Below are positions 1,237 to 6,000 of a stretch of 51,461 nucleotides of DNA, piece by piece. Both the position numbers and the translations under genes were made by a program. The stretch comes from Gammaproteobacteria bacterium (lineage in GTDB: Bacteria > Pseudomonadota > Gammaproteobacteria > DAOVJZ01). How positions within the stretch are numbered: position 1 is the first letter of the stretch; every line of letters begins with the position of its first letter. The stretch is from contig JAOUJV010000007.1 of NCBI GenBank assembly GCA_029882995.1, positions 1-51,461 on the forward strand. The letters are read 5' to 3'. The notes under the pieces are model-generated. The model was given only the letters and a program-made list of their open reading frames with translations. It had not been told where the DNA came from and did not search any database.

Positions 1237-3250
<2,014 letters not shown>

Positions 3251-3256
3251 ACCCCC

Positions 3257-3409: not shown

Positions 3410-4393
3410 ATGAACCATTCAATACTGGCTCTGATCACTTTTTTATTGATTATGCCTGGTACAACCGTGCTTGCTGAGCACGGTGGTGATATCGAATTTA
3501 CTGACCCAAAACTCATCTTTAGCATGCCAAAGGGCTGGGCTGATAAACCTGTCAAATATGAAGAAGGGACAAAGGCAGATGTTGTCATCTCGCTCGATCA
3601 ACAAAGTTATGTTGCGCTGAAAGATAAAATCCTCACCTATGCTGAAAAGACCAATACAAGAATTGTGGTCAAGGAAGGAACCTGCGGATTCTCACGCAGT
3701 CATCTGGAAAAAAAGACCATTGATATCGGTGGCTTCTGCTGTTCACCCGGTCACTCTGACAGATTGCCTGACCTCAAGTTTCATACTCTGGGAATTGCGT
3801 CAGTTGCACTCATTGTTCACCCTGACAATGAGCTGAAAAATGTCACCTTTCAACAGGCGCGTGACCTGTTTAATGGCAATATTGAAACCTGGTCACAACT
3901 GGGTCTGAAAAACCCCTATCCTGTTGTTCCGGTTGTCAGACTGCATTGCAAAAAACGGGCTGGCCACTGGCGACTACTTCTGCCCAATGAAGATCGATTC
4001 AGTATTTATGTTCATGATGTTGGTGTTATTCCTGACATGATTTCAAAAGTGGCCAAGGAAAAAAATGCCATAGGGTTTGAAACCTTGCTAATGGCAAAGG
4101 AATATAAAACAAAAGGAAATGTAAAACCCATTACTATTGACGGGATTGCACCTGAAGACACTGATGCACTTATCCGCACAGCCTATCCGATTTACAGAAC
4201 TTATGGCATTACTACCTGGACAGGGAAAAACAAGAACCCTCATGCAGAAAAGCTCGTACGCTATTTACTGGATACCGCTGATGACATGAGAGAATATCAT
4301 TTTGTATCACATAAAAAACTACGTGCCGCAGGATGGGAGTTTTTTGGAAATGAACTGGTTGGTGAACCTGAAGTTATCAGGAAAATGCAATAA
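3410..4393 (+). CDS. PstS-like periplasmic substrate-binding protein (ligand unknown)
   Basis: The 327-residue protein begins with a Sec signal peptide (hydrophobic ILALITFLLIMPG, likely cleavage after VLA, residue 22). The rest resembles the type 2 periplasmic binding fold of the PstS/PBP-like family, for example VTFQQARDLFNGNIETWSQL and the Pro-rich strand PVVPVVRLHC. It has four Cys residues after the signal (C92, C110, C111, C180), in contexts GTCGFSR, GGFCCSPG and RLHCKKRAGHW, where phosphate-binding PstS proteins usually have Ser, Thr, Asp or Arg. A metal, redox or disulfide role is an inference. No ABC permease or ATPase gene is nearby. The next gene, 2 bases downstream, is a membrane diguanylate cyclase, which suggests sensing instead of transport. 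The ATG is preceded by AAAGGACAGG. Confidence 0.8.
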   Translation: MNHSILALITFLLIMPGTTVLAEHGGDIEFTDPKLIFSMPKGWADKPVKYEEGTKADVVISLDQQSYVALKDKILTYAEKTNTRIVVKEGTCGFSRSHLEKKTIDIGGFCCSPGHSDRLPDLKFHTLGIASVALIVHPDNELKNVTFQQARDLFNGNIETWSQLGLKNPYPVVPVVRLHCKKRAGHWRLLLPNEDRFSIYVHDVGVIPDMISKVAKEKNAIGFETLLMAKEYKTKGNVKPITIDGIAPEDTDALIRTAYPIYRTYGITTWTGKNKNPHAEKLVRYLLDTADDMREYHFVSHKKLRAAGWEFFGNELVGEPEVIRKMQ

Positions 4394-4395
4394 CA

Positions 4396-6000
4396 ATGTT
4401 TAAGAAAGTTAAACGGTTTTTCTACAATCTGCCCATCAGTATCAAGATGACACTGATCACGATACTGGTCGGCACAATGATCTGGCTTGTCCTGAATCAT
4501 ATTCAAACCGCACAATTTACATCGCTGTTTCAGGAACGGTTACAGGACAGGTTTTCAAAAAATGCGGAAGAAGATCGTTATCGTTTTGATCAAAGTGTCA
4601 AGGCATTGCATCGAGCGGCCAAACTGTTATCTGAATTTTCTCCGCTAGTCCATTATATAGAACAGGACATGTCAAACAAAAAATCTGTTAATACTATTGT
4701 GCACCGCCGACCTCCTGTCTGGCTACCTTCAATGTCTGTTTTAAGGGATATGGTACCTATACGATATTCACTGCTAGTGGATTCAGGATTGAATGTGCGT
4801 GAGATATTCAAAACAACCAGACAGCCATTACCCGATGTATTACTGAAACCCACACCATACATGCTTGAACTCAGCAATGATCAAACCTATTTAACCTTAA
4901 TAGATGGAATTCCTTTTCTTGTAGCATCAAAAACAATTTCAATCGAAAATAAATCTGGTGATAATTTTTATCTAATACTGGTAACACCTATTGATTCTTC
5001 ATTTCTGATTTATACACAGGGTGGTGCTGAACGCGGAAATATAATCGCCTTGCTGGATGGACAGGATCAGCATGTTCTCACCAGCAGTAAGCCAGAGATT
5101 ATTTCTACGGGTATGTCTGCCAATAATATTCGAGAAGCCTATCTTGTGACAGATACGGCATTTTTTGATTATGGTGCAGCTGACCTTTTGATTCGTTTTG
5201 TCTCCATGACACCAACTGATGATCTCAAGGCACTGGAAAATACATTTATCCTGCGTGGTATTGTGGCAGCAATTGCCTTTATTATTCCGTTTCTTCTGAT
5301 CATGTACTGGATTACACATCGAATTCAAGGCTTGAATAAACGTATTAATGTTTTTATAGAAAACATGAATCTCCATCTATTTTTTAATTCTCAAGGTGAT
5401 GAGTTGAATAAACTCGAAAACAGATTTGTTGCACTGTCAGAAGAAATTATTGAAGAAACCAAATTACTAGAACATCAGGCCTTGCATGACAGCCTGACAA
5501 AACTGCCTAATCGCAGCCTGTTTAATGACCGATTTGATATAGCGCTGAAGGACGCAAAACGCGAAGGCCACGAAATGTCGGTCATGATCCTTGATCTGGA
5601 TAAGTTCAAGGAAATTAACGATATACTGGGACATCACATTGGTGATGAGGTATTGAAAGAGGTTTCTATCCGGTTCGCCAAAACCTTAAGAGCAACAGAC
5701 ACGGTTGCCCGTTTCGGTGGTGACGAGTTTGCTATTTTACTGACTAATTCAAACAGGGAACAAACAGAAAGGGTTGCCAAAAAACTGGTTGAGGTAATCC
5801 GCACCCCGATTGAAACAGATGGACACAAACTGGATGTCGGCACCAGTATCGGTATTGCCATGTTCCCTGAACATACCAAAGACAAGCAGTCTCTTCTGCA
5901 ATTTGCGGATCGTGCCATGTATGACGCCAAGCGTGGAAGAACTGGCTATAAATTCTACGATCCTGAAACTACGGGTATTTCCCACATTAGCTCAATCTAG
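4396..6000 (+). CDS. Membrane diguanylate cyclase with periplasmic sensor region
   Basis: This 534-residue protein should make cyclic di-GMP from two GTP. A first membrane segment (about 17-35) and a second (about 285-306) enclose a periplasmic region of about 250 residues, probably a Cache-like ligand sensor. A linker of about 50 residues follows, perhaps HAMP-like, then a GGDEF domain (about 365-530). The active motif is intact as GGDEF (441-445). The product-inhibition I-site RATD (432-435) sits five residues before it. No EAL or HD-GYP domain is present, so it is predicted to be synthesis-only. It starts 2 bases after the binding-protein gene, so the two are surely co-transcribed. The likely model is that the periplasmic protein presents a ligand to this sensor region. 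Confidence 0.93.
   Translation: MFKKVKRFFYNLPISIKMTLITILVGTMIWLVLNHIQTAQFTSLFQERLQDRFSKNAEEDRYRFDQSVKALHRAAKLLSEFSPLVHYIEQDMSNKKSVNTIVHRRPPVWLPSMSVLRDMVPIRYSLLVDSGLNVREIFKTTRQPLPDVLLKPTPYMLELSNDQTYLTLIDGIPFLVASKTISIENKSGDNFYLILVTPIDSSFLIYTQGGAERGNIIALLDGQDQHVLTSSKPEIISTGMSANNIREAYLVTDTAFFDYGAADLLIRFVSMTPTDDLKALENTFILRGIVAAIAFIIPFLLIMYWITHRIQGLNKRINVFIENMNLHLFFNSQGDELNKLENRFVALSEEIIEETKLLEHQALHDSLTKLPNRSLFNDRFDIALKDAKREGHEMSVMILDLDKFKEINDILGHHIGDEVLKEVSIRFAKTLRATDTVARFGGDEFAILLTNSNREQTERVAKKLVEVIRTPIETDGHKLDVGTSIGIAMFPEHTKDKQSLLQFADRAMYDAKRGRTGYKFYDPETTGISHISSI

Follow-up and report, generated by a model that had tools for sequence, protein, structure and literature searches.

A four-cysteine binding protein encoded beside a membrane diguanylate cyclase: a candidate periplasmic sensor of sulphur-living bacteria

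The textbook case of a receptor that depends on a separate binding protein to read its signal is LuxQ, which in Vibrio perceives AI-2 by way of LuxP. The kinase TtrS, for its part, carries a periplasmic binding-protein-like domain. ThsS and TtrS are sensor kinases for thiosulphate and tetrathionate, respectively (PMC5408782). In NspS-MbaA, a polyamine receptor of Vibrio and Sinorhizobium, an adjacent binding protein controls a membrane cyclic di-GMP enzyme (PMC8967002, PMC9993111). In the arsenic oxyanion sensors AioX-AioS, ArxX and ArrX, a binding protein of a phosphorus-oxyanion family has been turned to signalling, with a pocket residue, Cys106, near the ligand, and a histidine kinase as output (PMC5908839).

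Little is known about how bacteria of chemical gradients, such as Beggiatoa, Thioploca, Magnetococcales and deep Nitrospirota, perceive external sulphide, thiosulphate, metals or redox state. The gene pair described here is a compact and testable candidate for such a sensor, with conserved chemistry and swappable outputs. We think it likely that it forms a binding-protein-gated transmembrane receptor of the LuxPQ or NspS-MbaA kind, whose thiol pocket would read sulphur species, a soft metal or metalloid, or redox state. A literature search on PstS-like proteins with cyclic di-GMP, with most subscription journals outside its scope, found no description of the pair: as a two-gene sensor of bacteria that live on sulphur or in oxygen-sulphide gradients, it is apparently undescribed.

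The locus and the cysteine pocket of its binding protein

The window, that is, the whole stretch of 51,461 nucleotides that was analysed, contains both open reading frames (Table 1) in the order and with the 2-base spacing that the first-pass annotation had given them. The binding protein, called Cys-PBP below, has the four cysteines claimed for it and no others (C92, C110, C111 and C180); the receptor protein has none. An intact GGDEF and I-site had also been reported, and a pattern search recovers both in the segment RATDTVARFGGDEF. By these motifs, GGDEF and RxxD, the receptor would be a diguanylate cyclase of the active type; its Pfam GGDEF match has an E-value of 3.8e-49. Hydropathy and the AlphaFold2 model place hydrophobic segments at about residues 12-36 and 279-310, around some 240 periplasmic residues. 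A promoter scan gave matches no better than chance. A TPP riboswitch (3147-3256, minus strand, 66.8 bits) lies nearby, before the divergent, thiC-like gene at 1237-3135, and is not part of the pair.

Table 1. Features of the gene pair and the evidence for each
Feature	Position	Strand	Evidence
Cys-PBP, secreted PstS-fold binding protein with four-Cys pocket, 327 aa	3410..4393	+	PF12849 2.1e-9; AlphaFold2; Foldseek
Apparent Sec signal peptide, residues 1-22, without lipobox	3410..3475	+	sequence by eye; inference
Cys92 codon, aligned to phosphate-contacting Ser of PstS (GSS/GGGSG motif)	3683..3685	+	kept in 84/85; alignment to 4exl, 4q8r, 4gd5
Vicinal Cys110-Cys111 codons; Cys110 aligned to phosphate-contacting Asp/Ser of PstS	3737..3742	+	85/85 each; alignment
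His179-Cys180 codons, RLHC motif, anion-loop position of PstS	3944..3949	+	both 85/85; preceding Arg177 83/85
Membrane receptor and diguanylate cyclase, 534 aa	4396..6000	+	profile matches; 2 bases after Cys-PBP stop codon
Periplasmic double-PAS/dCache-like sensor domain, LuxQ type, ~residues 36-278	4501..5229	+	AlphaFold2 pLDDT 90.3; TMt 0.71 to 2hje
Second transmembrane helix and HAMP-like linker	5230..5430	+	hydropathy; model; weak HAMP match in PDB search
GGDEF domain	5479..5937	+	PF00990, 170 bits
I-site RATD, then active-site GGDEF	5689..5730	+	pattern search

Cys-PBP matches the Pfam family PBP_like_2 with 38 bits against a cut-off of 27, and fails TIGR02136, the PstS family model, with 45.2 bits against a cut-off of 206.6. 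Its apparent signal peptide, MNHSILALITFLLIMPGTTVLA, was read by eye, and the N-terminus of the AlphaFold2 model is of low confidence; the model as a whole, built on our own alignments, has a pLDDT of 90.6. The closest structure found by Foldseek is the phosphate-binding PstS 4q8r, at a target-normalised TM-score (TMt) of 0.85.

In profile alignments to solved PstS relatives, the serine of the GSS/GGGSG motif corresponds to Cys92 and the Asp/Ser of the DIG-x-x-D/S motif to Cys110; Cys180 falls within the third anion loop, beside a retained Arg177. The aligned positions are those of phosphate contacts, if we take the site of E. coli PstS to be Ser38, Asp56, Arg135 and Ser139. The cysteine contexts do differ from those of phosphate-binding PstS, as first proposed: a contact serine has become Cys92, and a contact Asp/Ser has become Cys110. 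With these positions now cysteines and one arginine kept, thiols appear to have taken the place of the phosphate site. The chemistry of such a pocket is what one would expect for sulphur species, a soft metal or metalloid, or a redox switch. A plain PstS annotation was rejected, as the TIGR02136 cut-off, the pocket residues and the gene context all speak against it. Membership in the AioX/ArxX family was also rejected: the Pfam match is to PF12849 and not to a PhnD family, and AioX is absent from the PDB sequence matches.

A scan of 84,980 species genomes yielded at least 80 loci, and 85 homologues were compared in all; the two search patterns used to find them did not include a cysteine. The lineages among the matches listed are Nitrospirota, Magnetococcales, relatives of Beggiatoa and Thioploca, Chromatiales, Desulfobulbaceae, Mariprofundus and magnetotactic Alphaproteobacteria; Magnetospirillum moscoviense BB-1 and Mariprofundus micogutta ET2 are examples of named strains that carry it. 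The first-pass annotation had proposed the conservation of the four cysteines as a check, and they are near-invariant among the 85 homologues listed: C92 is kept in 84, and C110, C111 and C180 in every one. The mature part has exactly four cysteines in 83/85 of those listed. The other invariant residues in this set are Arg118, His179, Arg183, Trp187 and Arg188, and Arg177 is present in 83.

Conserved cysteines may serve purposes other than binding. They could act as a redox switch that has no ligand, forming and breaking disulphides so that a change of shape reports an oxidising or a reducing (sulphidic) periplasm to the receptor. The numbers fit, with exactly four invariant cysteines, two of them vicinal, and no other in the mature protein; the carriers live at redox interfaces and are rich in dsrA (see below); and OxyR regulatory domains, a weak argument, are among the Foldseek fold neighbours of the model. 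However, Arg177 and further residues of the pocket (H179, R183, W187, R188) equal the cysteines in their invariance, which suggests a bound ligand, and a vicinal disulphide would make an unusual switch. We hold a ligand-free switch to be rather unlikely.

Alternatively, the four cysteines, which could make two disulphides, only stabilise the fold of a protein whose ligand is an ordinary oxyanion, such as phosphate, sulphate or molybdate, and whose signal is the level of that ligand. The PstS fold, the conserved Arg177 and the weak PstS-family score are consistent with this, but Cys92 and Cys110 fall exactly on phosphate-contact positions of PstS, which indicates that ligand contacts were replaced and that cysteines were not merely added. 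Moreover, the two subfamilies of Cys-PBP, introduced in the next section, differ in much else but have all four cysteines in common. We judge purely structural disulphides to be unlikely, and our order of readings is: sulphur species or a soft metal or metalloid, then a redox switch, then structural disulphides.

Pairing with membrane receptors

The AlphaFold2 model of the receptor's sensor domain, also built on our own alignments, has a dCache/double-PAS fold. The top TMt values given by Foldseek belong to the periplasmic domain of LuxQ, with 0.71 for 2hje and 0.57-0.66 for the others; the other sensor domains listed reach at most 0.54, although several dCache domains stand above LuxQ by E-value. 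Pfam has no family for the domain and gave no LuxQ match in any of 63 members, and a PDB sequence search with the domain gave none either; membership in the LuxQ sequence family was rejected on these grounds.

Co-occurrence of the two genes in other genomes had been named as a further check, and the pairing is conserved across phyla. Among the 85 homologues listed, the next gene on the same strand encodes a sensor domain of the window type in 70, mostly overlapping or tens of bases apart; the sensor is nearby though not adjacent in three (L044, L052, L068), three homologues are cut off or disrupted, and in nine the flanking sequence covered contains no sensor gene. In a class sample of 369 genomes, drawn evenly from the class, the window-type Cys-PBP is present in 10 and the sensor in 17, and every one of the 10 carriers of the former also has the matching sensor, where chance would give 0.46 (P 1.7e-15). 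In seven genomes, sensor relatives occur without a strong match to the binding protein; one of these has a partial Cys-PBP immediately upstream. Together with the nine homologues that have no sensor gene, they imply that neither partner is strictly obligate. In the genome of the window, window-type Cys-PBPs and matching sensors number exactly two each, and every one of them belongs to a pair: the second pair, on contig C171, has a binding protein 40% identical to the first and a receptor that ends in PAS-GGDEF-EAL. The conservation of the cysteines and the pairing of the genes are far beyond chance; a chance pairing is ruled out by the 70 adjacencies and the co-occurrence.

Evolutionary distances between binding proteins and between sensors are correlated (rho 0.68, 0/999 permutations), a figure partly confounded by common ancestry. 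Nearest neighbours agree between the two protein trees in only 27/62 cases, a comparison blurred by one truncated sequence.

The outputs vary much more. Pfam assigns the tails of 67 receptors to HATPase_c (45), GGDEF (9), EAL (4), an HD-type domain (1) and SpoIIE (1), and the output class switches at least 10 times on the maximum-likelihood tree of the binding proteins. Histidine kinases lead, followed by GGDEF, GGDEF-EAL, HD-GYP and SpoIIE outputs. The conserved part of the system is the input unit. The initial idea of a cysteine-containing binding protein acting as periplasmic input to a diguanylate cyclase is supported by the pairing, the cysteines and the lack of ABC genes; cyclic di-GMP, however, is one output among several, and in the majority of homologous pairs a histidine kinase takes that place.

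Several loci depart from the simple arrangement. In L151 (4040-10624), a single Cys-PBP gene is flanked on both sides by receptor genes of one type, GGDEF-EAL by motif, and its product may serve both receptors. Loci L143 and L145-L149 have sensor homologues with GGDEF-EAL or kinase output, no binding-protein gene was found upstream of them, and all of these genomes have dsrA. The Beggiatoa/Thioploca-type Cys-PBPs of L025, L032, L035 and L053 have no receptor gene; in all four loci, the genes that come next are one for a Sel1-repeat-like protein and one that is prephenate-dehydrogenase-like. As clues to the ligand, the recurring neighbours of Cys-PBP loci yielded only other signalling genes or lineage-specific synteny.

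A second subfamily consists of shorter Cys-PBPs, of about 300 amino acids, that have all four cysteines and the RLHC motif. The membrane receptor encoded by the following gene is of another kind, in nearly all cases a diguanylate cyclase, and the matching receptor is found in 11/12 carriers of the class sample (P 4e-17); in three further carriers of the second-type receptor, a divergent, split or shortened Cys-PBP adjoins it. Cross-pairs, a window-type Cys-PBP with a second-type receptor or the reverse, co-occur at chance level only, and any relationship between the receptor domains of the two types is remote (hhalign probability 83%). The genome of the window has a pair of this kind on contig C43 (L155, 2091-4595), which, with the two window-type pairs, makes three Cys-PBP/cyclic di-GMP pairs. 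The L155 pair lies downstream of ThiF/MoeB-like and prmC/prfA-like genes, a neighbourhood that partly recurs in relatives. In L174 (2544-3044), a second-subfamily Cys-PBP lacks an internal stretch that includes the RLHC motif, directly before a receptor gene: a natural deletion variant.

Could Cys-PBP instead serve a transporter whose genes lie elsewhere, as an orphan substrate-binding protein, and stand beside signalling genes by accident? Binding proteins are sometimes encoded apart from their transporters, and nine homologues do lie apart from sensor genes. But the 70 pairings span phyla, co-occurrence is strong, and the second subfamily has the same arrangement. The first-pass annotation saw no transporter genes: indeed none adjoins the window pair, and no recognisable ABC-transporter ATPase gene adjoins any of the 85 homologues listed, so that same-cysteine homologues beside pstCAB, which would have told against its proposal, were not seen; two ABC ATPase genes were found near homologues, both more than 1.5 kb away. 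No PstB of the window's genome scores over the curated cut-off, which 13/14 control genomes do pass. A transporter role is strongly disfavoured, and we give it very little credence.

Sulphur niche and proposed mechanism

In the class sample, dsrA is present in 114/369 genomes, in 20/24 Cys-PBP carriers, against an expected 7.4 (P 6e-8), as well as in 16/17 sensor carriers. Counted by family, the link persists, with 15/17 against about 6 expected (P about 3e-6). Of the four carriers that lack dsrA, two are incomplete genomes. Since only 20/114 genomes with dsrA have a Cys-PBP, the pair is not required for sulphur metabolism; and since correction for common ancestry is incomplete and the pair is absent from most genomes with dsrA, the link is a lead on the signal and not a proof.

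The genome of the window carries dsrA and soxB. It is rich in cyclic di-GMP enzymes (its 2.4 Mb encode about 38 GGDEF domains) and apparently lacks a standard Pst transporter. Its eleven PilZ domains show only that cyclic di-GMP has possible targets. Sulphur metabolism, and not the pili first suggested, is the strongest pointer to the ligand.

The pairing and the signalling role are strongly supported; physical binding, the formation of a complex, the ligand class and the sign of the response are what we infer. In the mechanism that we propose, Cys-PBP would have lost its phosphate site, and the pocket formed by the four cysteines would bind, or be modified by, a thiol-reactive signal. By analogy with LuxPQ and NspS-MbaA, the loaded protein would dock on its neighbour's periplasmic domain, which is LuxQ-like; TM2 and the HAMP-like linker would relay the resulting movement to the GGDEF domain, and the level of cyclic di-GMP would be set accordingly. 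The same input of binding protein and sensor would, in relatives, drive histidine kinases, phosphodiesterases or a phosphatase. Our first choice of ligand is a sulphur species (sulphide or polysulphide, thiosulphate, sulphite), followed by a soft metal or metalloid, and then redox state.

A broader conjecture, possible rather than probable, is that of an undescribed, multi-phylum family of extracellular sulphur-chemistry receptors, with a detachable four-thiol input and interchangeable outputs; it would allow sulphur oxidisers, Desulfobulbaceae and magnetotactic bacteria to find the sulphide-oxygen interface. The pair suggests a route from a phosphate-binding protein to a thiol-based sensor that came to be paired with two receptor types, and offers a template for engineered sensors of sulphur or soft-metal compounds.

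Comparison with known systems

Cys-PBP shares with PstS its fold and its sequence superfamily, but has cysteines at the phosphate contacts, no adjoining PstCAB and a score that fails TIGR02136. Like ThsS and TtrS, the system would sense sulphur oxyanions; in those, the binding domain is inside the kinase, whereas the window system has a separate gene product. LuxP-LuxQ has the same architecture, a separate periplasmic binding protein with a membrane receptor whose periplasmic domain is a tandem PAS, but the sensors have no detectable sequence similarity, LuxP is a ribose-binding-type protein without such a cysteine pocket, and the window-type output is often cyclic di-GMP. NspS-MbaA resembles the window pair in its adjacent binding protein and membrane cyclic di-GMP enzyme; NspS, however, is a polyamine binder of the PotD type and MbaA a GGDEF-EAL protein, whereas the window pair combines a PstS fold, a cysteine pocket and a diguanylate-cyclase-only output. 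Finally, AioX, the arsenite sensor, makes a comparable use of a pocket cysteine: it is PhnD-like and has one key cysteine, whereas Cys-PBP has four, on a PstS fold, and is coupled to several types of output.
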